DNA from: Moorella humiferrea
Lineage (GTDB): Bacteria > Bacillota > DSM-521 > Neomoorellales > Neomoorellaceae
DNA: 64,000 nucleotides
Assembly: GCF_039233145.1 (NCBI RefSeq)
Contig: NZ_CP136419.1
Coordinates: forward strand, 1,772,001-1,836,000
Direction of reading: 5' to 3'
This document shows, in pieces, positions 13,912 through 56,995 of this stretch. The notes under the pieces were generated by a model. That model worked only from the letters and a program-made list of their open reading frames with translations, had not been told where the DNA came from and did no database searches. How positions within the stretch are numbered: position 1 is the first letter of the stretch; the number at the start of each line of letters is the position of its first letter. The translations under genes and the position numbers were made by a program.

Positions 13912-16140
13912 TTATTTTTTCGCCGGCCGCAGTTTATAACGTTTAATCATTTCATTCAGGGTGCTTCTTTTAAGGCCGAGGATTTCCGCCGCCCTCGCCT
14001 GGACCCACTGGCTTTCTTCAAGGGCCTGAACTAACAAGTTGATTTCATATGCTGTTACGGCCTCCTTAAAGCTCATTCCCTTGGTATAAGCCCAGCCGGA
14101 AGCGTTGGCGGACAAGTTGCGGAACTGGCGCGGCAGATCTCCCACTTCTATTTTTTTGCCCTCCGCCAGGATCACCGCCCTTTCGATGACGTTTTCCAGT
14201 TCCCGGACATTACCCTGCCAGTCGGCCCGAACCAGGGCGTCCATGGCCTCGCTGGTAAAACCGGTTATCTCTTTTCCTAAGCGGCGACTATACTTCTCTA
14301 AGAAATGCCTGGCCAGTAAGGGAATATCGTCCCGCCGTTCCCTTAGCGGCGGCAGCCAGATGGTTATAACATTTAGGCGGTAGAAAAGCTCCGGACGGAA
14401 AGCCCCTTCTTTTACAGCCTTCTCAAGATCGCGGTTGGTGGCTGCCAGAACACGCACGTTAACCCGGGTGGGTCGTGTCTCGCCTACTCTTATAAACTCT
14501 CCTTCTTGTAAAACGCGTAAAAGCTTGCTCTGGAGCCCCGGGCTAATGTCGCCGATCTCATCCAGAAAAATGGTTCCTTCATGGGCTTCCTCGAACAATC
14601 CCTTCTTGGCCGTCACCGCGCCGGTGAAGGCGCCCCGGGCATGGCCGAACAACTCGCTTTCCAGGAGCGTTTCCGGCAGGGCGGCGCAATTAATACTGAT
14701 AAAGGGCGCTTCGCTGCGGCGACTGCGGTAATGGATGGCCCTGGCCACAAGTTCCTTGCCGGTGCCACTCTCCCCGCGGATGAGAACGGTGGCATCGGTT
14801 TTGGCGACTTTTTCAATCATACGATATACTTCCTGCATGACGGCGCTGTTACCGACCAATTGGCCGTACTGCCCCTGAAAAACCTTAAGTTCCTGGCGCA
14901 GGTTAAGGTTACTTTTTTCCAGCTGGGCGATGAGATAAGGCAGACACATGCGGTTTTCGGCCAGACCGTGATAAACGGCGATGGCCTTCTCCCGGCAGGA
15001 TGAATAGCCGCAGGCGCCACAGTTAAGTTCATCTTCGGGGGTGAGTTTGCCCAACTCGGCAAGGATTTTTCGTATATCGGCCTCGGTTGGACGGGGGAAA
15101 AATACGCTTTTATCGTGAAATTCCCGGCGTAAATTGATAATATCGGGGTTTATCGGCCGCGGTGTTGCCTTTTCTAACCCCTGGCGGGTAAATTCGGCCA
15201 CAATTTTGCGCCGGCGAAAGGCGGAGAATTTATTTTCCTGCATGGGCCCGTTTATACAACCTTTACAGAAGAGCATATCTACCATTTTGGGCATCATTTG
15301 TCCTTCATTGACGGCTTTTAAAAATTCCAGGCAGTCTTCCCGGCCCTCTATTACCAGTACCTGGTTGGCCAAAATGTCGGCGTCCACCCCCGCGCTCCTT
15401 AAAAGACCGCCGCCTACCGGGTACAAACGTCCTAGATAGGCCGGTTCGCTGTCGAAATCCATATTACCGCAGGAATTAACGTCGATCTGCCTGACGGCCA
15501 GCATTTCCTTTATTTCCAAAAAAGTCAGGACGGCGTCAACGGCCCCGGCAACTTCGTCTTCCTGGGCCTCCCCTTTTTTGGCCACACAGGGGCCTATAAA
15601 AACTATCCGGCTGTCCGGACCAACCTTCTTTTTAAGATACCTGCCCAGGGCAATCATCGGTGAAACAACGGGGATTAACTGGGATAATAATTTAGGATAA
15701 TATTTGCTCACAAGGTTGACCACCGCCGGGCAGGGGGTGCTGATTAATCCCTGGCGTTCCCCGGCTTCCTGGAGGTAGCGGCGGTATTCAAGGGTGACTA
15801 AATGGGCGCCAAAGGCCACTTCATGGACCTCGGCAAACCCCATCTGCTTTAAAGCCGCCACTACCTGTCCGGGCCAGGCAGGATGGAACTCGGCCACGAA
15901 AGAAGGAGCCAGGCAGGCAATAGTCCTTTTTGTCGTGAGATACCCCTCCACTTTCTCTACCTCACGTTGCACTTCCTTGGCCTGCTGGGCACATACCTGG
16001 ACGCAGTGGCCGCAGGCAATACAGAGTTCGGGGACAACCCTGGCCTGACCCTCCACTACTTTTATGGCTTTCACAGGGCAGTTACGAATGCAGGCATAAC
16101 ACATGCGACATTTACCTGTGATTGTTTTCACTATTTCCAT
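13912..16140 (-). CDS. Sigma-54 activator with [FeFe]-hydrogenase-like sensory domain
   Basis: A 742-residue regulator with an unusual input. Residues 1-55 carry two ferredoxin motifs (CRMCYACIRNCP, CIACGHCVQVC). About 70-310 is an [FeFe]-hydrogenase H-cluster-like domain with all three cysteine loops in altered form: STPCPAV (C137), IGPCVAKKGE (C185) and FCKGCINGP (C292/C295, CxxC rather than the catalytic CxxxC). About 370-400 is a further Fe-S domain (CGACGYSSC). Then a sigma-54 AAA+ module (GESGTGKE near 456, GAFTGA near 503) and a C-terminal Fis-type HTH. Start at ATG 16140 is set by AAAGGGTGG. It probably senses H2 or redox state and activates sigma-54 promoters; two such promoters lie within 5 kb. 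Sensing and targets are inferred. Confidence 0.9.
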   Translation of the reverse strand: MEIVKTITGKCRMCYACIRNCPVKAIKVVEGQARVVPELCIACGHCVQVCAQQAKEVQREVEKVEGYLTTKRTIACLAPSFVAEFHPAWPGQVVAALKQMGFAEVHEVAFGAHLVTLEYRRYLQEAGERQGLISTPCPAVVNLVSKYYPKLLSQLIPVVSPMIALGRYLKKKVGPDSRIVFIGPCVAKKGEAQEDEVAGAVDAVLTFLEIKEMLAVRQIDVNSCGNMDFDSEPAYLGRLYPVGGGLLRSAGVDADILANQVLVIEGREDCLEFLKAVNEGQMMPKMVDMLFCKGCINGPMQENKFSAFRRRKIVAEFTRQGLEKATPRPINPDIINLRREFHDKSVFFPRPTEADIRKILAELGKLTPEDELNCGACGYSSCREKAIAVYHGLAENRMCLPYLIAQLEKSNLNLRQELKVFQGQYGQLVGNSAVMQEVYRMIEKVAKTDATVLIRGESGTGKELVARAIHYRSRRSEAPFISINCAALPETLLESELFGHARGAFTGAVTAKKGLFEEAHEGTIFLDEIGDISPGLQSKLLRVLQEGEFIRVGETRPTRVNVRVLAATNRDLEKAVKEGAFRPELFYRLNVITIWLPPLRERRDDIPLLARHFLEKYSRRLGKEITGFTSEAMDALVRADWQGNVRELENVIERAVILAEGKKIEVGDLPRQFRNLSANASGWAYTKGMSFKEAVTAYEINLLVQALEESQWVQARAAEILGLKRSTLNEMIKRYKLRPAKK

Positions 16141-16293
16141 TGTATACCACCCTTTGCCGTACCTTTTTTCTCTAATAATTATACAATACACCGCTTCGGA
16201 TGGCGAGACAAAATTTTGAACTAAAAAGGACATAAAAAAGCCGCCTCATAAAAAGGCAGCAAAAAAGGAGGCGGTGTACGTCGTTTTCTTGCT

Positions 16294-17123: not shown

Positions 17124-18398
17124 TCAGGCCAGATGGAATACACTGAAGTAAATCCAACTAACTATGGCGCCTACTACCGACATAGATAACCCCCATATCA
17201 ACATATCCCGGAAGAGTTTTTGCTTGTCGGTTTTCGGACCGGCATTGGCATAGTATAGGGCCCCGGTGGTCGACAAAGGACTCATATCCGTCATGAAGCC
17301 GCAAACGGCGATTGCCGAAATGAGGGCCAATAGTTCTGACGGCGGGGCGCCGACCTTTTCTAAAAGCATCGGCGCCATGGGAATAAAGGCCGGGAGAATG
17401 ACGCCCGTGGTGCTCGCGTAAGCGGATATCAAGCCGGCGATGAATCCCGCAACCAAAGTAATGGTAAAGGGTGTTGAAAATCTGGCGATGAGACTGGCGA
17501 AAAGATCCATGCCGCCGATCTGTCCCATTAAGTTGATAAGCACGGTAACGCCGCAAACAAAAAGGATGGCTCCCCAGGGCATTTGTTTGATGGCCTTGCC
17601 TTCGTCCGCCACTTTAAAAAACGAAAGGATTGATCCGATGAGAAACGCTCCCAGGCCGACGTCCATTTTAAACGCAAGGGCGCCAACGACGAAAATTATA
17701 ATCCCCAGTAAAGTTATAAGTTGATTATGGTCGAAAGGCTCAACCTGGATCCTGGCCAGCGTCTCGCGCTGACCACCGTCCCCTTTTTTAAAAAGCCTCA
17801 ACCCCCCAAAAAGAATATAGGCAATTAATGAAATTATAAAATAGGTGATTAACATATTAAGCCACAATTTCCATCCGATATTGGTCAAACCCATTTTGGC
17901 CGTAATCCCGGTGGTGATGATGCCGCCGATAGCAATGGGTGACATGGAGCCCGCCTGGCCGCCGTTGCCGGCGACAATGGACATCATCAAAGGGCTTATG
18001 CCTACCTCCTCGGCCAGTAGCATAGCCATCGGGGCCATCAGGGCGGCTATGACCGTAGGTCCCGGACCCATCGACGAGAGGATAAAGGCCAGGAAAAAGA
18101 ATATAAACGGTAAAAGGGCGGTATTTCCCCTTACACCTTTAATGGTATATTTGACTATCTTCTCCAGGGTACCGTTGACCTGGGCCAGGGCAAAAAGATA
18201 AGTGCTCCCCGCCAACATCAGGAAAATATTAGTAGGATAGCCTTTGATAACTTCGCTAATTTTAACGCCGCCGATATAGCTTACCAAAAGGCTCAAGCCC
18301 AGAGATAAAGTGCCAATATTCAATGTCGTCACACAGCTTATGACAATAGCAAAAAGTAGCGCTATTAAGGATATAACCGGTAAAGACACTTTTCTCAT
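17124..18398 (-). CDS. MatC-like/SLC13-type dicarboxylate permease
   Basis: A 424-residue polytopic membrane protein with about 11-12 hydrophobic segments. The N-terminal half (LLFAIVISCVTTLNIGTLSL, VSYIGGVKISEVIKGYPTNIF, SMGPGPTVIAALMAPMAML, NGGQAGSMSPIAIGG) matches the MatC N-terminal domain and SLC13/ion-transporter signatures; the C-terminal half repeats the pattern (SAYASTTGVILPAFIPM, DMSPLSTTGALYYANAG). Such proteins take up malonate or C4-dicarboxylates with cation symport; the substrate cannot be read from sequence. A near-perfect sigma-54 promoter is 104 bases upstream, so the permease is under an enhancer-binding activator, most likely the PrpR-like protein next door. Probably supplies the substrate used by the divergent operon. 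Confidence 0.8.
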   Translation of the reverse strand: MRKVSLPVISLIALLFAIVISCVTTLNIGTLSLGLSLLVSYIGGVKISEVIKGYPTNIFLMLAGSTYLFALAQVNGTLEKIVKYTIKGVRGNTALLPFIFFFLAFILSSMGPGPTVIAALMAPMAMLLAEEVGISPLMMSIVAGNGGQAGSMSPIAIGGIITTGITAKMGLTNIGWKLWLNMLITYFIISLIAYILFGGLRLFKKGDGGQRETLARIQVEPFDHNQLITLLGIIIFVVGALAFKMDVGLGAFLIGSILSFFKVADEGKAIKQMPWGAILFVCGVTVLINLMGQIGGMDLFASLIARFSTPFTITLVAGFIAGLISAYASTTGVILPAFIPMAPMLLEKVGAPPSELLALISAIAVCGFMTDMSPLSTTGALYYANAGPKTDKQKLFRDMLIWGLSMSVVGAIVSWIYFSVFHLA

Positions 18399-18501: not shown

Positions 18502-18517
18502 TGCAATTTTCGTGCCA
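18502..18517 (-). promoter_or_regulatory. Sigma-54 (-24/-12) promoter of the permease gene
   Basis: Minus strand TGGCACGAAAATTGCA matches the TGGCACG-N4-TTGCA consensus completely. A second -24-like TGGCACG lies downstream (18493-18487) but without a good -12 box. The distance to the ATG is about 104 bases. The rest of the 18399-18650 gap shows no gene. Confidence 0.85.
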
Positions 18518-18650: not shown

Positions 18651-20558
18651 TCACCCGGTCCCTTGGCCGCCCTTTCGATATTTATTTAGCTTACGCCACA
18701 GGGTTGTGCGCCCGATACCCAGACGCCGCGCTGCCTCGGCCTGATTGCCGCCGGTGGCGGCCAGAACCCTTTCAATCAACGCCCATTCGGTTTTATCGAG
18801 GAGATTCTGGCTTTCCCCTCCTAGATCCGCAATGCCGCTGGGAGAGAAGCTTTCCTCTTCTAGCATTTCCTTGATTAATCCCGCGGTGATTGCCGATTTA
18901 TCGGCTAACAAAACCAACCTTTCTACCATGTTTTTTAATTCCCGCACATTTCCCGGCCAGGTATACTGCCTTAACAAATTTAAAGCCTGTTCCCCCACTG
19001 CCGGTATTTCCTTTTGGAATTTAATGCAAAAATCATGCAGGAAACTATAAAACAAAATTATTATATCCTCGCCACGGGCCCGCAGTGGCGGTATATTAAG
19101 GGTCAAAACGTGCAGGCGGTAATATAAGTCAGCGCGAAATCGTCCTTCCTGCACCATTTGTTTTAAGTTGCGGTTTGTGGCGGCAATAACGCGTACGTCC
19201 ACGGGTAAGAGCCTGTCATCACCCAGACGCATAACTTGACCTTCTTCAAGGACCCGCAATACCCTGGCCTGGAGTTGACCGGACATTTCACCGATTTCGT
19301 CCAGAAATATGGTCCCGCCATGGGCAATTTCAAAAAGCCCAGGCTTCCCGCCGCGGCGGGCACCGGTAAAAGCCCCTTCTGCGTAGCCAAAAAGTTCGCT
19401 TTCTAACAAGTTTTCCGGAAGGGCGGCGCAGTTGACGGCCACGAAGGGGCCGTCCTTTCGCCTGCTAGCCCGGTGAATGGCCTGGGCGAACATTTCTTTA
19501 CCGCATCCCGTCTCCGCCTGCAGGAGAACGGTGGCGTCGGCCGTGGCAAATTTCCTGGCTTTTCTTACGGCTTCCTTAATGGACGCGCTATCTCCCAGGA
19601 TGTCGTCAAAGGTATAGCGGGCCACATGGCCGCGGTTCACAAGATTACGCCGTATTTTATGCTCCAGTTTCTGTATCTGTTGTACGTCTTGCAGGGTAAT
19701 AATCAAACCGCGGATGCGGTTTTCGACTTTTATGGGGATGCCGTTAATTACAACTTGGCGTTCTTCTAGGGGCATGAGCACCCCCTTTTCCTCCCGGCCT
19801 GTACGCCGGATCCTATCTAAAAACGGCCAGGAAAAAATTTGGGTGATGGGAACGCCGATAACCTCATCGCGGGAGCGGCCCAGCAACCTCTCGGCCGCAG
19901 GGTTAAAGGTAGTAATTACCATATTCTCGTCTACGGCTATGATGGCGTCGGAATTAAAATCGACAATGGCCTTCATCTGCTGTATTTTGGCCTGCTCTTG
20001 CTCGTAAATCTTGAGGACGCGCCATGCCTCTTCCAAGGCCTGTAGGACACCTTCCCAACCGGAAGTTATCATTACGGCTTTAAGGCTATAAGCTTGCGCC
20101 AGGCGGGTGGCGGTACCTTTTCCTACGAAAACCTTCGCCCCTTCCCGCTTTAGATACCTGATGGCGCGCCGCATCCCCTTTATATCTTTTACGGCCACAC
20201 CCATAATTTTTTCTCCCAAGATTTCGCCGATGGCGTTAAAACCCATTATAACTTCTTCTTCTTCCGCCACCCCCACCGGCGTCCCTTCCTGGCGGGCCTG
20301 CCAATAGGCGCGCAGGAGGTCGTAGCCGGTAACCGGAACTGAGACGACCGGAACTTCCAGGGCATTACGTATATATCGTGCCGTAAGGCCGCGGGAAATG
20401 ATAACACGACTGCCGCCTTTAACCGCCGCCCTCGCCAGTTCCACTCCCTGCTCCAGCTGGCCGACGACAATATCTACTTCCCATTTGTTCTCCTGACAGA
20501 TGGCCATGGCCATCTCCGCCAGGGATTGATAAGTAGCCACCATGGTAATGGCCGCCAT
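18651..20558 (-). CDS. PrpR-type sigma-54-dependent activator
   Basis: A 635-residue enhancer-binding protein. Residues about 10-180 form a PrpR_N-like domain (VVGQLEQGVELARAAVKGGS, VISRGLTARYIR, VVSVPVTGYDLLRAY). About 195-300 is a PAS domain (DFNSDAIIAVDENMVITTFN). About 330-550 is the sigma-54 AAA+ domain with ETGCGKE (Walker A), GAFTGA and FLDEIGEM (Walker B). The C-terminus is a Fis HTH (NQAEAARRLGIGRTTLWRKL). PrpR_N domains sense intracellular small molecules such as 2-methylcitrate. It is flanked by two genes or operons with sigma-54 promoters, one on each side, so it is the obvious local activator. Effector unknown. Confidence 0.92.
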   Translation of the reverse strand: MAAITMVATYQSLAEMAMAICQENKWEVDIVVGQLEQGVELARAAVKGGSRVIISRGLTARYIRNALEVPVVSVPVTGYDLLRAYWQARQEGTPVGVAEEEEVIMGFNAIGEILGEKIMGVAVKDIKGMRRAIRYLKREGAKVFVGKGTATRLAQAYSLKAVMITSGWEGVLQALEEAWRVLKIYEQEQAKIQQMKAIVDFNSDAIIAVDENMVITTFNPAAERLLGRSRDEVIGVPITQIFSWPFLDRIRRTGREEKGVLMPLEERQVVINGIPIKVENRIRGLIITLQDVQQIQKLEHKIRRNLVNRGHVARYTFDDILGDSASIKEAVRKARKFATADATVLLQAETGCGKEMFAQAIHRASRRKDGPFVAVNCAALPENLLESELFGYAEGAFTGARRGGKPGLFEIAHGGTIFLDEIGEMSGQLQARVLRVLEEGQVMRLGDDRLLPVDVRVIAATNRNLKQMVQEGRFRADLYYRLHVLTLNIPPLRARGEDIIILFYSFLHDFCIKFQKEIPAVGEQALNLLRQYTWPGNVRELKNMVERLVLLADKSAITAGLIKEMLEEESFSPSGIADLGGESQNLLDKTEWALIERVLAATGGNQAEAARRLGIGRTTLWRKLNKYRKGGQGTG

Positions 20559-20748: not shown

Positions 20749-21708
20749 ATGCAGACAAAAGCGGCGGTCTTAACTGCACCGGGAAACCTTGAAATTACAA
20801 CAAGGGAATTAGAATTGGGCGAAGATGAAGTCCTGGTCAAATGCCATCTTACCGGTATTTGCGGCTCAGACAAATCGATATACAAGGGCGACCTGCCGCC
20901 CAATATCACTTTGCCCTTTTATATCGGCCATGAAAGCGGAGGAACAGTGATCGCCGTAGGAAGCAAGGTCAGGGAATATAAACCGGGGGACCGCGTTATG
21001 GTCTTCAACTGGTGCAATGCCTTTGCGGAATATTATAAAGTTCCCGTCACCGGATTACAACCTGCGCCGGCAGGATTAGATCCGGATATAGCCGCCCTGG
21101 GTGAACCCGTAGCCTGCGCCATGTACTCGGCCCTTACATGCGGCGCCCAACTGGGAGATACGGTGGTCGTCTACGGAATGGGCTTTGCCGGCCAGATCAT
21201 CGCCCAGGCCGTTAAAGCCATGGGGGCCTACCGCGTTATAGCCGTTGATGTGGCTCCTGGAAAACTCGAGCTGGCAAAAAAATTGGGGAGCGATATAATC
21301 ATCAATGCCGCTCTCGAAGATCCCGTCCAGGCAGTTTTAGATCTCACCGACGGTGTGGGTGCCGACGTCGTAGTGGAAGCGGCCGGCAGCGAAAAAAGCA
21401 TGAATCAGGCCACTGCCATGTTGAAACACAACGGAATCCTCGCCCTTTATAGCTGGATTACCCAGCCGGTCACCCTCAACATCGGCAGATGGCATGATGA
21501 TGCCCTGGAAATCAGAACGACCTGTCTGGTGCATCATACCCGCGAACAGCGTTACATCTGGACGCCCTGGGCTTTGAGACCGGTAATCCAGGGACAGATC
21601 GACGTCCGTTCATTGATAACCCATGAGTTCCAACTTGACCGCATCGCCGAGGCCTTTGCAGTGGCGGTTCAAGATCCGGGAGCAATTAAAGTGGTCGTAC
21701 GGCCTTAA
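20749..21708 (+). CDS. Zinc-type MDR alcohol/polyol dehydrogenase
   Basis: A 319-residue medium-chain dehydrogenase and first gene of the operon. The catalytic zinc ligands are in TGICGSDKSIYKG (Cys) and YIGHESGGTV (His-Glu). The NAD(P) Rossmann fold has VVYGMGFAGQIIAQAVKAMG with an acidic residue at the next strand end (VIAVDV), which favours NAD over NADP. The usual structural-zinc four-Cys lobe is missing, which explains the shorter length (typical 340-350) and places it with MDR members of the sorbitol or threonine dehydrogenase type lacking that lobe. GGTAAGGAAGG precedes the ATG. It probably oxidises a hydroxylated substrate in the cytoplasm and hands electrons to NAD; substrate unknown. 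Confidence 0.88.
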   Translation: MQTKAAVLTAPGNLEITTRELELGEDEVLVKCHLTGICGSDKSIYKGDLPPNITLPFYIGHESGGTVIAVGSKVREYKPGDRVMVFNWCNAFAEYYKVPVTGLQPAPAGLDPDIAALGEPVACAMYSALTCGAQLGDTVVVYGMGFAGQIIAQAVKAMGAYRVIAVDVAPGKLELAKKLGSDIIINAALEDPVQAVLDLTDGVGADVVVEAAGSEKSMNQATAMLKHNGILALYSWITQPVTLNIGRWHDDALEIRTTCLVHHTREQRYIWTPWALRPVIQGQIDVRSLITHEFQLDRIAEAFAVAVQDPGAIKVVVRP

Positions 21709-22253: not shown

Positions 22254-23714
22254 ATGAAACAGGTAAGGCGTAAAACCATCGACCCCCTTTTACCGGCACT
22301 AATTGAAGCTTCCCGTAAGACGGGTTTCGCCCTTGTGTGGGATCGTTACGAAAGGCAATTGCCCCAGGACGGTTTTGCCCGTCTGGGATTGAGCTGCTAC
22401 GATTGCCTTCAGGGACCCTGCCGGCTGCATCCCTTTGGCGAAGAACCCCAAGTTACTATCTGCGGCCGTAGCAGTGATGATCTGATCGCAGGTTGGTTGC
22501 TGAAAAATATCACCCTGGCCAACTTCAAAAGGAATGCCCTGTTGCAGGAAATGTTTGAGGCCGCCCAGGCCAGAGGAATCTCCGAAGAAATCCCTTTTAA
22601 AGATAATACTTCTCACGGCAGCGAAATAGACATCCTTAATATGTGCATGGAAAAAGCATATACGTCCCTATCCTATGACGAAGCTATCATAGACCTCGCC
22701 CATCGCTTATGGCCTCGAAACGCCGGGGAGGATGCGGGTTATAAGGAGTATAGGCCGGAGCCTGAAAAAGCAAATGTCCTCCTTCATAACTGTTCTCCCC
22801 TTTTCATCGCCTGGCTTAAGGAAAAAATTCGGGACGCCGGTCTCAAGATGTCTCTATTATTGCTTGGCGGCGACAGCCTGTTCGAGTATTTGGATTTGCC
22901 CGCCATACCCACCAGCCGGTACGAAGCCGTACTCCTCAGCGGTTTGGTTGATCTGGTTCTGACTGGTGATTCTTTTGAAGGCTGTGGGCCTGGTAATTTG
23001 GCCAGAAACTTAAACATAAAAGTTATAAGCGTACCCTCTAGATTCAACGCGGAAGGGGCGGCTGCCGTCTGGGATACGATACGGGAAAAGGCCGCCAATC
23101 CTTCGCCTCGTACGGGAAACGCCTCCCTGGCGGCCTTCAAGAAACCCCAATTTAATTTTGATATGGAAAAAATCCTTGAGGATTTGGTAAGCGGCTATAA
23201 AAACAAAAAATACCGCGGTTTTTGCCTTCTGGGGGGCGGCAGCAATGTCAAGCATACGGGTGACGAGGCTCTTGCCTATCTAGCCAAAACACTAACGGCC
23301 AACGACGTTGCCTGTTTCGTCGCCGGCGACGCCCTTTTAAACCTCGCCAAATACGACGAAATAGACGGGGTGATCCCCTTAGGCTCCTTTTTTGCCATGG
23401 GGCGCGGCCGGAAACTGCTGGCGGAATTGGCCAGGCGGCTGGGATTGAGCCTTAGTGATTTACCGGCCATAGCCATCTATCCCGAGATGAACACGTCCAT
23501 GGAATTGAGTCAGGCCTTCGGTATAGCCCGCCATGGTATCCCTACCTACATCGGCACTCTCCTGCCTATATGGGGGAGCCGGGATACGGCGGACCGTTTG
23601 CGGCGCGAAGGTTTAATCCTCGTCACTACCCCTGAAAATCCAGAAAAAGTGATAACCACCCTGGAACCGTTCCTGACGGCCAAGGGAATGTTCCAAGGGA
23701 TGAAAGGGGCGTAA
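22254..23714 (+). CDS. CODH (CooS)-like protein lacking C- and D-cluster ligands
   Basis: A 486-residue relative of Ni-containing CO dehydrogenase, which is normally about 630 residues. The N-terminus LSCYDCLQGPCRLHPFGEEP matches the CooS B-cluster segment; C48, C51, C56 and C70 fall at the same numbers as in Carboxydothermus CODH-II. The D-cluster cysteines 39 and 47 are replaced by D39 and S47. By eye the C-cluster ligand segments align at VLLHNCSP (His178 kept), LLGGDSLF, GDSFEGCGPG (C244), LLGGGSNVK, FVAGDALL and PLGSFFAMGRG. Only His178 and perhaps C244 remain of one His and five Cys, so catalytic CO chemistry is unlikely. GGAGGAAG fixes the start. Its place between a CooF-like ferredoxin and another ferredoxin implies electron transfer or a scaffold or sensor role. 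The function is not known to me. Confidence 0.8.
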   Translation: MKQVRRKTIDPLLPALIEASRKTGFALVWDRYERQLPQDGFARLGLSCYDCLQGPCRLHPFGEEPQVTICGRSSDDLIAGWLLKNITLANFKRNALLQEMFEAAQARGISEEIPFKDNTSHGSEIDILNMCMEKAYTSLSYDEAIIDLAHRLWPRNAGEDAGYKEYRPEPEKANVLLHNCSPLFIAWLKEKIRDAGLKMSLLLLGGDSLFEYLDLPAIPTSRYEAVLLSGLVDLVLTGDSFEGCGPGNLARNLNIKVISVPSRFNAEGAAAVWDTIREKAANPSPRTGNASLAAFKKPQFNFDMEKILEDLVSGYKNKKYRGFCLLGGGSNVKHTGDEALAYLAKTLTANDVACFVAGDALLNLAKYDEIDGVIPLGSFFAMGRGRKLLAELARRLGLSLSDLPAIAIYPEMNTSMELSQAFGIARHGIPTYIGTLLPIWGSRDTADRLRREGLILVTTPENPEKVITTLEPFLTAKGMFQGMKGA

Positions 23715-23716
23715 TC

Positions 23717-24448
23717 ATGAAAATCGACAGCCAAAAATGCGTCGGCTGCGGACGCTGCCAGCATTACTGTACGATGGGGGCCATATATTTTCGCCAGACC
23801 ATGGGCAAGGTCCACGCCGCCGTGAATGAAGAAGAATGTGTCGACTGCGGCGTCTGCGAGCGCGCCAAAGTTTGCCCCGTCGACGCTTTGTATCAACCAA
23901 TCCACGATTGGCCCCGCTCCATTCGCGGTACTTTCAGCAATCCTTTGGCCGAACACAAGGAAACCAAAGTACCGGGACGCGGTACTGAAGAAATGAAAAC
24001 TAACGACGTCACAGGGCGTTATCGTCCGGGCTTCGTCGGCCTGGCAGTAGAAATGGGCCGGCCGGGAACGGGAGCCAAAATGCCGGAAATTGAAAAGGTA
24101 GTCATGGCCCTGGCGGCCTTGGGTGTAGAATTTGAAACCAAGAACCCCTTGACTAGCCTAATTGTGGACCGCAAGACGGGGAAAATGCATCCCGAGGCCA
24201 TGAACGAAAAAGTACTTTCGGCCATAATCGAGATGCTCATTCCCCTGGACCAGGTGCCCCGGGTCCTCCAGGCGGTCAAGAAAGTGGCCGCGGAAATAAA
24301 CACCGTATTCAGCGTAGATTTAACCAGCCGGGCCGATGAAAATGGTTTATCTCCCGGAGCCCTTCTCGCGGCCGAACACGGTTACAAGATATCAATAAAC
24401 GGGAAAACCAATCTGGGCCTCGGCCGGCCCCTTGCCCGGGAGGTGTAA
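23717..24448 (+). CDS. Ferredoxin-domain protein with unknown C-terminal domain
   Basis: A 243-residue fusion. The first 60 residues hold two ferredoxin motifs, CVGCGRCQHYC and CVDCGVCERAKVCP, for [4Fe-4S] clusters. From about residue 90 to the end is a domain I cannot assign: NDVTGRYRPGFVGLAVEMGR, then MPEIEKVVMALAALGVEFE and PLTSLIVDRKTGKMHPEAMN, then alternating helix/strand sequence that could be ACT-like. It starts 2 bases after the CODH-like stop codon and ends 3 bases before the next gene, so it belongs to the same transcript. Probably an electron carrier joined to a regulatory or binding domain. Confidence 0.7.
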   Translation: MKIDSQKCVGCGRCQHYCTMGAIYFRQTMGKVHAAVNEEECVDCGVCERAKVCPVDALYQPIHDWPRSIRGTFSNPLAEHKETKVPGRGTEEMKTNDVTGRYRPGFVGLAVEMGRPGTGAKMPEIEKVVMALAALGVEFETKNPLTSLIVDRKTGKMHPEAMNEKVLSAIIEMLIPLDQVPRVLQAVKKVAAEINTVFSVDLTSRADENGLSPGALLAAEHGYKISINGKTNLGLGRPLAREV

Positions 24449-24451
24449 AAC

Positions 24452-25093
24452 ATGAGCCATACACTCCATCGTCGGGGAAATGAGGAAAACCTCAAAGAAG
24501 ATATTATAGTCTTTGCCATGTCGGCCAAAGGAATAAATGATAAAAACTCGAAGGATAAGCTACAACATTTCTTACGCATCATGCACCGCCATCATCCCGT
24601 CAACATGGGGGATATGAAAACGGGCAACCTTTTCAGCGCCGGTGCCGAAAACATAATCGCCAACGTACAGGATACTTCCATCGTCCACGCCGTATTTACT
24701 TCTAAAGAAGAAGTGGCGAAGGTTATTAAAGAAGTTAAGGAAGCCGATCTGGGAATATCCGTGATTGTCAGCGGTATTATGACCGACGTGCACCAAATAT
24801 GCGGCCAGGTAGGAATAAAACCCCATACGGTTGAACACTCCCTGGGAATTATGGGGAAACTCTCACGGCTTCCCGAGGATGAGCTTTTGCAGATTACCAC
24901 CATGTGCGGCCACGGCATGGTTTCCAGTCGCCTGGCGCGCAAAATGTTGCTGGAAGTAAAAAGAGGCCGCCTTCAGGTCGAAGAGGCGGCGCAAAAATTG
25001 GCCTATCCCTGTGTGTGCGGGGTTTTCAATCCCGCCCGGGCGGCCAAAATTTTATCCCAGCTCGTAGATTTGTGGTGCCTAGATGAATTCTAA
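24452..25093 (+). CDS. Conserved-looking Cys-containing protein of unknown function
   Basis: A 213-residue protein I do not recognise. The N-terminal part is alpha/beta (DIIVFAMSAKGIND, ENIIANVQDTSIVHAVFTSK, SVIVSGIMTDVHQICGQVG). The C-terminal part carries regularly placed cysteines, TTMCGHGMVSSRLARKML and LAYPCVCGVFNPARAAKIL, and these with QICGQVG could ligate a metal or Fe-S cluster. GGGAGGTG precedes the ATG. It ends 13 bases before the oxidoreductase start. Being fifth in a sigma-54 operon of redox proteins, it may be an accessory or catalytic partner of the CODH-like protein. No membrane segment. Confidence 0.7.
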   Translation: MSHTLHRRGNEENLKEDIIVFAMSAKGINDKNSKDKLQHFLRIMHRHHPVNMGDMKTGNLFSAGAENIIANVQDTSIVHAVFTSKEEVAKVIKEVKEADLGISVIVSGIMTDVHQICGQVGIKPHTVEHSLGIMGKLSRLPEDELLQITTMCGHGMVSSRLARKMLLEVKRGRLQVEEAAQKLAYPCVCGVFNPARAAKILSQLVDLWCLDEF

Positions 25094-27003: not shown

Positions 27004-28725
27004 CTAATATTTTCCCCTGGGCGTGTAATGGGTGTGGAGGAGGTGATGGGATTTTTCGCTTAGAGGCTTGCCCAGGAACTCGCGATACAGGGCCTGGATG
27101 GACGGATTTTCATGGGACTTGCGGATGGGCATCTGGGCGTCGGCCTGGTAAATGCCTTTAATCCGCTGTTCTCTGATTTCGGTAGTGGTGGGAATGGGCT
27201 GACCGCCGCCGCCGATGCAGCCGCCCGGACAGCACATGATTTCAATGAAGTGGTACTGCTCCCCAGCCTTCACCCGTTCCAAAAGCTGCCGGGCATGACC
27301 CAGGCTGTGGGCTACGGCCACCCGAACCTTGGTGCCTTCGATATCCACGGTGGCTTCTTTAATTCCTTCAAGGCCCCGGACATCATGGAAATCAAGGGAA
27401 GGCAGGGTTTTACCGGTGATCAACTCATAGGCGGTGCGCAGGGCCGCTTCCATCACGCCGCCGGTGGCGCCGAAAATCACCGCCGCCCCGGTGGATTCGC
27501 CTAAAGGATCGTCATACTGTTCTTCCGGCAGGGTCTTGAAGTCGATCCCCGCTTCTTTTATCATCCGCGCCAGCTCGCGGGTGGTGAGGACGTAGTCCAC
27601 ATCCTGGTAGCCGCTGTCCCGCATCTCCGGCCGCTGGCACTCAAACTTCTTGGCCGTGCAGGGCATGATGGAAACCACGACCATTTTGGCCGGGTCGATA
27701 CCCACCTTTTGGGCATAGTAGGTCTTGGCCACGGCTCCGAACATCTGCTGGGGCGATTTGCACGTCGACACGTTGGGAATAAATTCGGGATAGAAGTGCT
27801 CCATGAACTTGATCCATCCCGGGCTGCAGGAGGTAATCAACGGCAGGGGACCGCCCTTGGTAAAGCGCTCGATAAACTCGGAGCCCTCTTCCATAATGGT
27901 CAGGTCGGCGGTAAAGTCGGTATCAAAGACCCGGTCAAAACCGAGCCGCCTTAAGGCCGCCACCATCTGGCCGGTGTTGATGCTTCCCGGCGGCAGGCCA
28001 AACTCCTGGCCAATTGACACACGGGTGGCCGGGGCCGTCTGGACGACGACGAATTTTTCCGGATCGGCCAGTGCCGCCCAGACTTCGTTGGTATAATCCT
28101 TCTCGTACAGAGCACCCACCGGGCAAACCAGGGTGCACTGGCCGCACTCTACACAGGGGATATTGAGCAGTTTATCCTGGAAGGCCGGGGCGATGACGGT
28201 GTCAAAACCGCGCCCTATGGGGGCGATGGCCTTTACCCCCTGGACCTTCTCACAAACGGCTACGCACCGCCGGCAGAGGATGCATTTGTCGGGCTCGCGG
28301 ATAATGGCCGGGGTAGAATCGTCTATAGGGTATTCGCTCCTTTTTCCTTCAAAACGCACCTGCCGGATTCCCAGTTCCTGGGCCAGGGACTGCAGCTCAC
28401 AGTTCAGGTTGCGGATGCAGGTGGGGCATTCCATCTTATGATTGGAGAGGAGCAGCTCCACATTCAACCGCCGGGCCATCCTCACCCTGGGGCTGTTGGT
28501 TTTGACCACCATGCCCTCGGCCACCGGAGCCACGCAGGAGGCCATCAAAGTTCTGGCTCCCTCTACTTCTACCACGCAGACCCGGCAAGCGCCGATCTCG
28601 TTGATGCCTTCCAGGTAACATAGGGTGGGGATGTGGATGCCGGCCTTTTCGGCGGCTTTCAAGATCGTCGTTCCGGCCTCTACTTCCACCGGGATATTAT
28701 CAATGGTAAGTTTTACGGTGCTCAC
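27004..28725 (-). CDS. hydA: [FeFe] hydrogenase catalytic subunit HydA (NAD-linked, trimeric type)
   Basis: A 573-residue catalytic subunit. The N-terminal [2Fe-2S] domain has CYLEGINEIGACRVCVVEV, then a His/Cys domain, CILCRRCVAVCE and CVECGQCTLVCPVGA ferredoxin motifs, and the H-cluster domain with intact L1 TSCSPGW, L2 MPCTAKKFE and L3 MCCPGGCIGGGGQP. This is the group A3/A6 subunit of electron-bifurcating HydABC, which couples H2 to NAD and ferredoxin. GTG at 28725 with GGAGG upstream gives the usual start VSTVKLTIDN; the frame opens to 28833 without homology. It is last in the operon, after the HydB-like fusion. Maturases HydE and HydG are 17 kb away in the same window. Confidence 0.96.
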   Translation of the reverse strand: MSTVKLTIDNIPVEVEAGTTILKAAEKAGIHIPTLCYLEGINEIGACRVCVVEVEGARTLMASCVAPVAEGMVVKTNSPRVRMARRLNVELLLSNHKMECPTCIRNLNCELQSLAQELGIRQVRFEGKRSEYPIDDSTPAIIREPDKCILCRRCVAVCEKVQGVKAIAPIGRGFDTVIAPAFQDKLLNIPCVECGQCTLVCPVGALYEKDYTNEVWAALADPEKFVVVQTAPATRVSIGQEFGLPPGSINTGQMVAALRRLGFDRVFDTDFTADLTIMEEGSEFIERFTKGGPLPLITSCSPGWIKFMEHFYPEFIPNVSTCKSPQQMFGAVAKTYYAQKVGIDPAKMVVVSIMPCTAKKFECQRPEMRDSGYQDVDYVLTTRELARMIKEAGIDFKTLPEEQYDDPLGESTGAAVIFGATGGVMEAALRTAYELITGKTLPSLDFHDVRGLEGIKEATVDIEGTKVRVAVAHSLGHARQLLERVKAGEQYHFIEIMCCPGGCIGGGGQPIPTTTEIREQRIKGIYQADAQMPIRKSHENPSIQALYREFLGKPLSEKSHHLLHTHYTPRGKY

Positions 28726-28750
28726 CTTGTTTTCGCCTCCTATCTTCCAC

Positions 28751-31700
28751 CTATTCCCGCACGTCGCAACGCAGACAGCGCGACGCTTCGGCAACCGCGG
28801 CCTCCAGGTCGTAGCCCAGTTCCACTTCGGCAAAGCCCGCCAGGCGTTCCGTCACTTCCAGGCTGGGCGCCGCCACCCGCGGCGTCTTCTCCTCTATCAC
28901 CGGTGCCGTCCGCTGGCGCTTGATTTCCATCTCCGGTACAATCACGCCGTCGCCGCCGAGGTATCGGTCGATGGCCGCCGCCGCCTTTTTGCCGGCCGCA
29001 ATGGCCCCGATAACGGTATCCGGGCCTGCTACGCAGTCACCGCCGGCGAAAACCCAGGACACCTTGGTGGCGCCGGTCTTCTCGTCAGCCACTATTGTAC
29101 CCGCCCGGCTCACTTCGAGGCCTTCGGGTATGCTCTCCGGATCAACCGTTTGACCGATGGCGGCTATGATTATATCCACCGGCATGGTGAATTCAGAGCC
29201 CTCGACGGGAACCGGCCGGCGCCGACCGCTCCGGTCGAATTCGCCCATCCGCATACGGATACACTTCACGGCAGTTACCTTGCCGTTTTCGCCCAGAATG
29301 GCAACGGGATTGGCCTGGCAGGTAATCTTTACGCCTTCCTTTTCCGCCTCGTGTATTTCTTCACGCAGGGCCGGCATATCGTCCTTCTGGCGCCGGTAAA
29401 TGATGTGCACCTCTTTAGCTCCCAGACGCAGAGCCGAACGGGCGGCGTCCATGGCCACGTTACCGCCGCCGACGACGGCCACCACTTTATCCTTTAGGTC
29501 TAACACCTGGCCCAGGTTAAGCTGTCGCAAGAAAGTGGCTCCGGCATATACGCCCTCCAGTTCCTCCCCCGGGATGCCGAGTTTCTGGTCCTTATGGGCG
29601 CCGATGGCCACAAAGACGGCTTCATAACCCTGTTCTTTAAGGTCTTCCAGGCGGAAATCGCGGCCTAAAGCTTTGCCGGTCTTAAGCTCCACGCCCAGTT
29701 CCAGAATGGTATCAATCTCCGCCTGGAGGGTCTTCTTGGGCAGGCGGTATTCCGGAATTCCTACGGCCATCATGCCGCCGGCCACCGGCAGGGCTTCAAA
29801 TACTGTTACACCGTAACCTTTCTGGGCCAGGTAATAGGCTGCCGTCAGTCCCGCCGGGCCGGCGCCGATTACGGCCACCTTTTTGCCGTTGGGCGGCGAG
29901 ACTTCCGGTCTTGGCCGCTGGCCGTTGAGCTTCATGGCGTAGTCGGCGGCAAAGCGCTTGAGTTCGCGAATGGCCAGGGGCTGGTCAATCTTGGCCCGGT
30001 TACACTTGCCCTCGCAGGGATGGTTGCAAACGCGGCCGCAGACCACCGGGAAGGGGTTCTCCCGCCGGATAACTTCGTAGGCTTCGGCGAAGCGCCGCTG
30101 CCGGATGAGGTCGATGTATATGGGTACGTCAACGTTGGCCGGGCAGGTGTTCTGGCACGGCGAATTAAAGAGGGCGGCGCAGACGCTGGCCGGGCAGCGG
30201 TGATCGCGGATGTGGGCCAGGTATTCATCCCGGAAGTATTTAATGGTGCTCAAAACCGGGTTGGGAGCCGTCTGGCCCAGACCGCAGAGGGCCGTATCTT
30301 TAATCTGCTGGCCCAGCTCCACCAGCAGGTCGAGGTCTTCCTCTTTGCCCTGGCCTTTAGAGATACGATCGAGGATTTCCAGCATCCGGGTCGTGCCGAT
30401 ACGGCAGGGGGTACATTTGCCGCAGGATTCGTCTTTGACAAAATCCAGGAAGAACTTGGCCAGGTCCACCATACAGGTGTCCTCGTCCATGATGATCAGA
30501 CCGCCGGAACCCATAATGGTCCCCAAGGCCGTCAGGGATTCGTAATCGATGGGGGTATTTAGATATTCGGCCGGGATGCAGCCGCCCGAAGGCCCGCCCG
30601 TCTGGGCCGCTTTGAATTTCTTGCCGTCGGGAATGCCGCCGCCGATGTCATAGATTACTTCGCCCAGGGAAGTTCCCATGGGGATTTCTACCAGACCGTT
30701 GTTGTTGATTTTTCCGGCCAGGGCAAAGACCTTGGTCCCCTTGCTCTTTTCGGTACCGATGCTGGCAAACCATTCCCAGCCCTCGCGGATAATGGTGGGA
30801 ATATTGGCCAGAGTTTCCACATTGTTGATAACCGTAGGTTTGCCCCACAGGCCGGATACGGCCGGGAAAGGCGGACGCGGCCGCGGTTCACCGCGGCGGC
30901 CTTCGATGGAGGCCAGTAGCGCCGTTTCTTCACCGCAGACAAAGGCGCCGGCACCAAGGCGGATATCGATATCAAAGTCAAAGCCGGTGTTAAAGAGGTT
31001 CTTGCCCAAAAGGCCCTTTTCTCGCGCCTGCTGGATGGCAATTTTCAAACGGTTTACGGCTATGGGGTACTCGGCGCGCACATAGATGTAGCCTTGACTG
31101 GCACCGATGGCGTAGCCGCCGATAGCCAGACCCTCCAGGACGGCATGGGGGTCGCCCTCAAGGATACTGCGGTCCATAAAGGCCCCCGGGTCACCTTCGT
31201 CGGCATTGCACACGATATATTTAACCGGTCCCGGCGAGCGGTGGGCAAACTCCCACTTTAAACCCGTGGGGAACCCGCCGCCGCCCCTCCCGCGCAGTCC
31301 TGACTTTTTAATTACATCGATTACCTCCGCCGGGGTCATGGTGGTGAGAACTTTCCCCAGGGCCTGGTAGCCGTCACGGGCAATATATTCATCTATAGAT
31401 TCCGGATTTATAAGTCCGCAGTTGCGCAGGGCGATGCGCACCTGATGTTTGAAGAAAGGAATCTCTTCAAAGGCCTTGACAGCCGCTTCCGTCTCCGGTT
31501 GTTTATAGAGTTTACGCTCCAGCACCCGGCCCTTAACGAAATGCTCCTCCACCAGTTCCGGTACGTCTTCCGGGTGAACCTGGGTATAAAATACCCCTTC
31601 CGGGTAAACCATCATATTGGGGCCGAAGCGGCAGAAACCGAAACAACCGGTATCGACGACCTGGATTTCCTTGTCCAGGCCCCTTGCCTTAAGTTCCTTT

Positions 31701-31786
31701 ATGAGGGCCTCTTTCGTGGCCGGGCTTTCCGAAGCCGTACAGCCGGTGCCGGCGCAAACCAGAACGTGGGCGCGATAAAAATCCAT
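28751..31786 (-). CDS. hydB: HydB/NuoF-like subunit fused to a GltD/NfnB-like module
   Basis: A 1011-residue fusion. Residues 1-95 are a thioredoxin-like [2Fe-2S] domain (C11, C16, C48, C52). About 110-460 is the FMN/NADH domain (SGLRGRGGGGFPTGLKWE, ADEGDPGAFMDR). An SLBB segment and a [4Fe-4S] site ESCGKCTPCRIGTTR follow. From about residue 545, instead of the usual C-terminal two-cluster ferredoxin, comes a GltD-type Fe-S domain (CQNTCPANVDVPIYI, CGRVCNHPCEGKC) and an FAD/NAD(P) oxidoreductase (AVIGAGPAGLTAAYYLAQKG near 650, VVAVVGGGNVAMDAARSAL near 780, VFAGGDCVAG near 920). HydB carries the NADH and flavin site of HydABC; the extra module could be a second flavin and pyridine-nucleotide site. 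Confidence 0.92.
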   Translation of the reverse strand: MDFYRAHVLVCAGTGCTASESPATKEALIKELKARGLDKEIQVVDTGCFGFCRFGPNMMVYPEGVFYTQVHPEDVPELVEEHFVKGRVLERKLYKQPETEAAVKAFEEIPFFKHQVRIALRNCGLINPESIDEYIARDGYQALGKVLTTMTPAEVIDVIKKSGLRGRGGGGFPTGLKWEFAHRSPGPVKYIVCNADEGDPGAFMDRSILEGDPHAVLEGLAIGGYAIGASQGYIYVRAEYPIAVNRLKIAIQQAREKGLLGKNLFNTGFDFDIDIRLGAGAFVCGEETALLASIEGRRGEPRPRPPFPAVSGLWGKPTVINNVETLANIPTIIREGWEWFASIGTEKSKGTKVFALAGKINNNGLVEIPMGTSLGEVIYDIGGGIPDGKKFKAAQTGGPSGGCIPAEYLNTPIDYESLTALGTIMGSGGLIIMDEDTCMVDLAKFFLDFVKDESCGKCTPCRIGTTRMLEILDRISKGQGKEEDLDLLVELGQQIKDTALCGLGQTAPNPVLSTIKYFRDEYLAHIRDHRCPASVCAALFNSPCQNTCPANVDVPIYIDLIRQRRFAEAYEVIRRENPFPVVCGRVCNHPCEGKCNRAKIDQPLAIRELKRFAADYAMKLNGQRPRPEVSPPNGKKVAVIGAGPAGLTAAYYLAQKGYGVTVFEALPVAGGMMAVGIPEYRLPKKTLQAEIDTILELGVELKTGKALGRDFRLEDLKEQGYEAVFVAIGAHKDQKLGIPGEELEGVYAGATFLRQLNLGQVLDLKDKVVAVVGGGNVAMDAARSALRLGAKEVHIIYRRQKDDMPALREEIHEAEKEGVKITCQANPVAILGENGKVTAVKCIRMRMGEFDRSGRRRPVPVEGSEFTMPVDIIIAAIGQTVDPESIPEGLEVSRAGTIVADEKTGATKVSWVFAGGDCVAGPDTVIGAIAAGKKAAAAIDRYLGGDGVIVPEMEIKRQRTAPVIEEKTPRVAAPSLEVTERLAGFAEVELGYDLEAAVAEASRCLRCDVRE

Positions 31787-32161
31787 TTACTCTTCCCCCC
31801 TGTTAACAACCCATTCGCTGATAACAATACCGTTAACTATGTGCTGGGCGACAATCTGCCGCGCCTTGCTGGCGTCTACTTTGCCGTAGGTAACCCGCGG
31901 TTTCCCCGGCAGGATGACGTCCACCAACGGTTCCTGGGCGCAGAGGCCGATGCACCCTGTCTGGGTGACGGCAACACCAGTGAGGCGCCGCTTGCCCAGC
32001 TCATCCAAAATGGCGCTCATTACTTCCCGGGCACCGGCAGCAATCCCGCAGGTGCCCATCCCCACGACGATTTTGGCCTTTTGGTCCGCTTCGCGGAGGC
32101 GAATAGCCTCCAGCTGGGCTTCTTTAATCCTTTGCAGCTCTTCCAGGGACTTGATCACCAA
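31787..32161 (-). CDS. Thioredoxin-like [2Fe-2S] ferredoxin-domain protein
   Basis: A 124-residue protein of the (2Fe-2S) ferredoxin type found in many HydABC operons. An N-terminal helix (LEELQRIKEAQLEAIRLREA) is followed by VVGMGTCGIAAGAREVM and VTQTGCIGLCAQEPLVDV; three cysteines are seen here, the fourth ligand position is not a Cys. It lies between the HATPase gene (overlap of 7 bases) and the HydB fusion (adjacent), so it is translationally coupled. It probably shuttles or positions electrons within the hydrogenase complex; the exact role in the family is not established. Confidence 0.85.
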   Translation of the reverse strand: MVIKSLEELQRIKEAQLEAIRLREADQKAKIVVGMGTCGIAAGAREVMSAILDELGKRRLTGVAVTQTGCIGLCAQEPLVDVILPGKPRVTYGKVDASKARQIVAQHIVNGIVISEWVVNRGEE

Positions 32162-56530: not shown

Positions 56531-56995
56531 TCACTTGTACAGCAAAGTTGCTATGGTCCCGATAAAACCCACAGCAATGGTAATTACGGCGCCGATAGCC
56601 CAGAATCTAAGGTTACTAAGCTTGTCATCCAGTTGATCAATACGCTTATTTAGTTTATCTTCGATAGCATCGATACGCTGGCTTAGTTTTTGCTCTACTG
56701 CATCAATACGCTGGCTAAGCTTTTGCTCTACTGCATCAATACGCTGGCTAAGTTTTTGCTCTACAGCCTCGATGCGCTGGCTTAGTTTTTGCTCTACTGC
56801 ATCGATGCGCTGGCTTAGCTTTTGCTCCACCGCGCTAATGCGTTCTTCGGAATTTTGGTCCCCATCCCGGATTTCTTTCGTCAATTTTTCGTCGAGTCGG
56901 TCTATACGCTGTAAAAGAAAGAAAAACTCCGCTGATGCCATTGTACGTGGCGGTTCATTTGTTGCTGCTATTTCCCGCAAGCTTTCCTCCGGCAT
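56531..56995 (-). CDS. Coiled-coil protein with 11-residue repeats and C-terminal membrane anchor
   Basis: A 154-residue protein. The middle is five 11-residue units of AVEQKLSQRID, then IEDKLNKRIDQLDDKLSNLR and a single C-terminal helix of about 20 hydrophobic residues (FWAIGAVITIAVGFIGTIA), so it is tail-anchored with the coil in the cytoplasm. The repeat is right-handed coiled-coil type (hendecad) rather than heptad. ATG at 56995, with AGGTGA upstream, is preferred over GTG 57004. Resembles phage- and plasmid-borne DUF1640-like coiled-coil membrane proteins; function unknown. Confidence 0.75.
   Translation of the reverse strand: MPEESLREIAATNEPPRTMASAEFFFLLQRIDRLDEKLTKEIRDGDQNSEERISAVEQKLSQRIDAVEQKLSQRIEAVEQKLSQRIDAVEQKLSQRIDAVEQKLSQRIDAIEDKLNKRIDQLDDKLSNLRFWAIGAVITIAVGFIGTIATLLYK
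56667..56831 (-). repeat. Five tandem 33-bp repeats
   Basis: Units start at 56667, 56700, 56733, 56766 and 56799; each holds GCATCRATRCGCTGGCTTAG or a close variant and encodes the 11-residue coiled-coil repeat on the minus strand. Near-identity suggests recent expansion. Confidence 0.9.

Follow-up and report, generated by a model that had tools for sequence, protein, structure and literature searches.

CODHs are valued for their Ni-Fe active site, and surveys usually filter out the divergent members of the superfamily. One CODH survey dropped hits shorter than 550 amino acids or scoring below 200 bits (PMC6344411), another dropped sequences shorter than 400 amino acids or lacking the B-cluster or the C-terminal C-cluster cysteines (PMC8776680), and a 2026 context study omitted clades G and H (PMC13056359). 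Where CODH clades have CooF and FNOR as neighbors, electrons from CO are thought to pass from CODH via CooF and FNOR to NAD(P) (PMC8776680). The D-cluster cysteines are missing in some Cdh-type groups (PMC6344411). CooS-V of Carboxydothermus (7b7q) is a CODH-scaffold protein without CODH activity, in which C295 → E is the only C-cluster loss and which contains an Fe/S/O hybrid cluster together with B-type and bridging clusters (PMC9311411). The mini-CooS proteins, or clade G (Thermosinus carboxydivorans WP_007288589), are short, deep-branching, and CODH-like, and a complete metal-cluster motif has been reported for them (PMC8776680). Class III hybrid-cluster proteins (HCPs; 7e0l, PMC10502027) have a shortened middle (helical) region, and HCPs keep the seven ligands of the hybrid cluster.

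Here we analyzed P3, a protein of 486 amino acids encoded in a stretch of 64,000 nucleotides from Moorella humiferrea (the window; Table 1). Judged by its sequence, P3 is a descendant of the CODH superfamily that is, by its ligands, not a CODH. It shares with CODH-II of Carboxydothermus (1su6), a Ni-CODH of the CooS type, full-length homology, the fold, the motif and numbering of the B-cluster, and the CooF and FNOR neighbors seen in several CODH clades, but it has none of the C-cluster cysteines, H261, H93, K563, or the D-cluster, and its helical region is about 80 residues shorter. The nearest precedents are CooS-V and mini-CooS. CooS-V has Glu at C295 and keeps the other C-cluster cysteines, whereas P3 has no C- or D-cluster cysteine at all; mini-CooS resembles P3 in its shortness and deep branching and is set apart by its complete motif, as described. 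P3 shares the shortened helical region with class III HCPs, but it lacks Cys at the positions common to the C-cluster and the hybrid cluster, and its B-cluster motif is of the CODH type. In the literature that we searched for CODH-like proteins without C-cluster ligands, the P3 family is not described, and the length and ligand filters or the omitted clades would have kept it out of the published surveys.

Table 1. Positions of the genes, sites, and ligand codons discussed in the text. Positions refer to the window unless a locus is given.
Feature	Position	Strand	Basis
MatC_N/CitMHS dicarboxylate-type transporter	17124..18398	-	profile match
Perfect sigma-54-type site TGGCACGAAAATTGCA, upstream of transporter	18502..18517	-	motif scan
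PrpR_N-PAS-sigma54 activator, divergent from operon	18651..20558	-	profile matches
Sigma-54-type -24/-12 site TGGCATTAAATTTGCA, upstream of P1	20665..20680	+	motif scan
P1: Zn-dependent alcohol dehydrogenase (threonine-dehydrogenase-like), first operon gene	20749..21708	+	profile matches
P2: CooF-like poly-[4Fe-4S] ferredoxin, 174 aa	21727..22251	+	profile matches
P3: CODH-fold protein with B-cluster only, 486 aa; ATG at 22254 with AAAAAGGAGG on its 5' side, stop at 23714	22254..23714	+	structure, profile, and alignment matches
D39 codon, first D-cluster cysteine position; Asp invariant in family	22368..22370	+	alignment
S47 codon, second D-cluster cysteine position; Ser/Thr in family	22392..22394	+	alignment
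B-cluster motif C48-x2-C51-x4-C56-x13-C70	22395..22463	+	sequence, CODH-II alignment; invariant in family
C180 codon, position of C-cluster ligand H261; not conserved	22791..22793	+	alignment
C354 codon; Cys invariant in P3 clade, Val/Ile/Leu in true CODHs and sister clade	23313..23315	+	alignment
P4: 4Fe-4S dicluster ferredoxin domain plus conserved domain without Pfam family, 243 aa	23717..24448	+	profile matches
P5: 213 aa, without Pfam/NCBIfam match; invariant CGHGMV and PCxCGVFNP motifs	24452..25093	+	profile searches
P6: FAD/NAD(P) pyridine-nucleotide oxidoreductase (FNOR, PadH/NirB-like), 400 aa	25083..26285	+	profile matches
Second short CODH-like lineage, B-cluster kept	L035:4192-5613, L036:5691-7109, L037:6427-7800		locus reading

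Fold and cluster ligands of P3

The NCBIfam model CO_DH_cata (TIGR01702) matched P3 with 74.4 bits (5.4e-21), below its cut-off of 478 bits, and Pfam Prismane matched above the family cut-off (1.1e-10). The closest solved structures were CODH-II chains (about 6e-29), and a profile of the 12-member family described below aligned through its positions 6 to 471 with residues 26 to 645 of CODH-II (tagged numbering; 8.6e-81). Structure prediction, which an initial annotation of the locus had proposed as a check, gave an AlphaFold model of low confidence (pLDDT 58.8, pTM 0.62), worst in the B-cluster segment. With this low-confidence model, Foldseek matched CODHs (5e-18), and VIA-align placed it on CODHs with Z scores of about 19 to 21 (390 to 440 residues, 4 to 6 Å) and on the class III HCP (7e0l) with the best Z score of 22.4 (362 residues, 5.2 Å).

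For the assignment of ligands, P3 was aligned with 20 CODHs from other loci, and the CODH-II numbers were taken from an alignment with 2yiv. As the initial annotation had noted, C48, C51, C56, and C70 of the B-cluster have the same numbers and spacing as in CODH-II, and D39 and S47 stand in place of the D-cluster cysteines C39 and C47. The short length of the protein and of its helical region was likewise confirmed, with 104 residues between C70 and N174 compared with about 185 in CODH-II. The annotation had also held that most C-cluster ligands were lost and that H178 and perhaps C244 remained. Every C-cluster cysteine is indeed gone: the alignment has L at C295, F at C333, G329 at C446, D359 at C476, and F379 at C526, and P3 carries no cysteine at any of these positions. 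The two supposed survivors did not hold up. H178 aligns with H259 of CODH-II, which is not a ligand, the H261 column being occupied by C180; and C244, three residues past the C333 column, is not conserved, Gly standing there in all relatives of the P3 clade. Hence, no C-cluster ligand is left in P3. The catalytic acid-base residues are replaced as well (H93 → R, K563 → M).

The P3 family

A scan of genome contigs with the P3 sequence of the window alone returned no relatives. One relative (L062) was found in another genome of the same phylum, and a second scan, with the alignment of these two sequences as the query against about 85,000 species genomes, yielded ten further loci. Six are in four Desulfosporosinus genomes, and the other four are in MAGs labeled Bacillota, Anaerotruncus, Negativicutes, and Heteroscilispira; the contig of the Negativicutes MAG (L089) covers only the N-terminal part of P3. 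D39, Ser or Thr at position 47, and the B-cluster are present in all family members, and the C-cluster cysteines are absent from all complete ones. Because ten complete relatives have identical losses, these have not arisen by chance in the window, and a frameshift or sequencing artifact as their cause is ruled out.

The eleven complete sequences, including that of the window, form one clade (bootstrap 100, SH-aLRT 98). Its sister clade (97/90) consists of short proteins (L040, L041, L074, and L127) that keep Cys at C333, C446, C476, and C526 (with one near C295) and have lost H261; this Cys-complete clade may belong to mini-CooS/clade G. The P3 clade persisted when 16 ligand columns were removed (SH-aLRT 96), and the ligand columns were therefore rejected as the cause of the grouping. 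With these columns gone, the L035/L037 group joined nearby, and the order of the deep branches is therefore unsettled. The CODH-like proteins L035, L036, and L037 (457 to 473 amino acids) resemble P3 in their gene order (CooF, CODH-like, FNOR) and in the loss of H261, C295, and C333, but in them the D-cluster and the final three cysteines of the C-cluster are intact; they form a separate branch and have no P4-P5.

Other unusual CODH-like genes were seen among the loci. L107 (G291:C5) encodes a CODH of 607 amino acids with H261 → F, H93 → L, K563 → R, and an unaligned C295, in which the other cluster cysteines are kept and which is possibly not a CODH. At L038:487-1794, a CODH N terminus with the D- and B-cluster cysteines is joined to an FNOR without its first FAD-binding part, which could be a deletion fusion or an assembly artifact.

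Is P3 then a decaying gene without function, retained by its position in the operon alone? The window copy has a roughly 20-residue deletion and a very long branch (2.4), which makes its placement within the clade unsure, and it may be drifting; P4 and P5 of the window are about 60% identical to their relatives despite the long P3 branch. The gene is also patchy, since among 18 genomes of the taxonomic family only that of the window has the C-cluster-less form (1 of 11 genomes of the genus); the Cys-complete form occurs in one congener (G008) and in one other genus (G015). However, ten intact reading frames with the same signature are found in several bacterial groups, and dN/dS values of 0.14 to 0.28 in five Desulfosporosinus pairs indicate purifying selection, which makes decay very improbable.

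The mean pairwise identity of residues 1 to 85, the B-cluster segment, is 0.61 in the family compared with 0.56 in true CODHs, whereas that of the former C-cluster domains is 0.36 to 0.38 compared with 0.53 to 0.56. Because the B-cluster segment is the most constrained and the rest of P3 is relaxed, we favor a role as a B-cluster relay or scaffold that carries electrons between P4/P2 and the FAD of P6. It is conceivable but unlikely that P3 is instead an enzyme whose former C-cluster cavity houses a new active site (Cys354 and its neighbors, for instance, with an organic substrate or another metal), to which the B-cluster would feed electrons. The invariant Cys354 is specific to the clade, two Rossmann-like domains are retained, the core has an invariant E224 and nearly invariant N331, T335, and P410-E411, and the operon encodes no other obvious large catalytic subunit. 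On the other hand, conservation in the domains surrounding the old C-site is among the lowest in the family, the residues at the old ligand positions vary (F, N, E, I, or V at 526 and G, A, or D at 446), and one new cysteine is insufficient for a cluster site. C324 and C176 were rejected as new ligands, neither being invariant.

Operon, neighbors, and regulation

P3 and the CODH-like proteins of the Cys-complete sister clade are encoded in one type of operon, with genes for a CooF-like ferredoxin (P2), the CODH-like protein, P4, P5, and an FNOR (P6). P2, P3, P5, and P6 are found together in every P3 locus, as far as the contig extends. P4 is missing from L081 and L082 only, where P5 is shortened (180 amino acids), and the gene order in L089 is P4-P5-P2-P3. 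P5 is present in 19 of 299 genomes, with up to nine copies per genome, and P4-P5 pairs are common elsewhere in the phylum; a fold search with a P5 model (pLDDT 68.6) gave no matches at E ≤ 0.001. P2 occurred in none of 18 P4-P5 loci without P3, and neither did a real P6 (one weak generic match, 64 bits). Because loci without P3 also lack P2 and P6, P2-P3-P6 behave as a single unit for electron transfer, one that was joined to P4-P5, an enzyme unit that can also occur separately. In the P5 tree, the proteins from Cys-complete operons are not adjacent to those of the P3 clade, so the tree gives no support to the five-gene operon having arisen only once.

P3 could also be a non-redox scaffold or dimer partner that organizes P2, P4, P5, and P6 and in which the B-cluster is structural. 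Consistent with this, the N-terminal stretch in which the D-cluster was lost (LPQDGFxRLGLSC) is conserved and resembles an interface, D39 is invariant, and the rest of the chain has long diverged. However, the four Fe-S cysteines are strictly kept beside three Fe-S or flavin partners, for which a relay is the simpler explanation, and we consider a purely structural P3 quite unlikely.

Carboxylate transporters or organic-acid regulators adjoin most readable P3-type operons: MatC/CitMHS and PrpR in the window, PrpR in L089, DctM in L083 and L084, TctA and an sCache_3 kinase in L062, and TctA in L040. Six of these operons have the P1 alcohol dehydrogenase nearby, and P4-P5 pairs without P3 adjoin PdxA, glycerate kinase, AOR, and similar genes. 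The operons of L081 and L082 adjoin the gene set of an NADH-dependent group A6 [FeFe]-hydrogenase, and the operon of the window faces HydABC-like genes (27004-32161, - strand).

Of the three best sigma-54-type sites in the 64 kb, two fall in the two intergenic regions that flank the PrpR-type activator, one before P1 and the other, a perfect site, before the transporter; these regions make up 0.7% of the window, and 1.9 such sites are expected by chance window-wide. The MatC_N/CitMHS transporter is probably in the same regulon as the operon. The PrpR-type activators and organic-acid sensor kinases that adjoin the operon might suggest that P3 senses CO, NO, or redox state on its behalf, but these regulators are complete separate proteins, and P3 has no output domain and is encoded inside an electron-transfer gene unit. 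We find a sensor hardly credible.

Elsewhere in the window, a single chain (13912-16233, - strand) combines several ferredoxin domains and one each of the [FeFe]-hydrogenase large-subunit, FeS, and sigma-54 AAA+ types with a Fis-type HTH; by its domains, it looks like a hydrogenase-derived sigma-54 sensor-activator. At 56679-56826 (+ strand), TGGCTnAGnTTTTGCT occurs five times with an exact spacing of 33 bases, forming a short tandem repeat that overlaps open frames.

Possible role of P3

The initial annotation had suggested that a former CODH was reused as an electron carrier, scaffold, or sensor. Descent and reuse are supported by homology, fold, the clade, selection, and the operon; the sensor gained no positive evidence, and an electron carrier or scaffold appears to be the best-supported of the three roles. 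We hypothesize, with a probability of roughly 0.5, that P3 has kept the CODH fold, has lost CO chemistry, and acts as a one-electron B-cluster relay and docking scaffold in an Fe-S flavoprotein of P2, P3, and P6 serving organic-acid oxidation. P3 would retain only the B-cluster [4Fe-4S] site, where a cluster is predicted to bind, and would form a multisubunit Fe-S flavoprotein with the CooF-like P2 and the FNOR P6. The carboxylate transporter, P1, and the P4-P5 pair would make up the pathway for oxidizing an organic acid or hydroxy acid to which this flavoprotein is attached. Electrons released at P4-P5 would pass to P2/P3, then to the FAD of P6, and finally to NAD(P), following the order of the route from CODH via CooF to FNOR, minus CO. 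We infer from genes and their neighborhoods that a cluster is bound, that the proteins form a complex, which way the electrons flow, and what kind of substrate is used. The CO site is gone, but the genes of the unit have stayed together and are linked to P4-P5 and to the uptake of organic acids. P3 probably acts like the electron-transfer half of a CODH.

Some points count against a relay. In a CODH-like dimer that has no D-cluster, the B-cluster would sit deeper than an exit cluster should, and its role could be structural only. Confidence in the AlphaFold model is low, above all at the B-cluster segment, and the long-branched (2.4) window copy may be drifting. More tentatively, and somewhat against the odds, the CODH scaffold may have become, in a so far unrecognized family, a subunit for electron transfer that works without CO, has only the B-cluster, and belongs to an undescribed organic-acid oxidoreductase (CooF/P3/FNOR plus P4-P5), a Cys-complete short CODH having turned into an active-site-less form within the same operon type.

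If our reading is correct, a conserved CODH-fold family without the active site would mean that the scaffold and the B-cluster have a separate existence, and the P3 family would provide a natural test of the role of a lone B-cluster. P3 also warns against inferring CO metabolism by homology alone. The operon also suggests that many genomes of the phylum encode an uncharacterized system (P4-P5) for the anaerobic oxidation of organic acids. P4-P5, a ferredoxin-X and a protein of 213 amino acids (23717-25093 in the window; L063-L080), are common in carboxylate-uptake clusters of the phylum.
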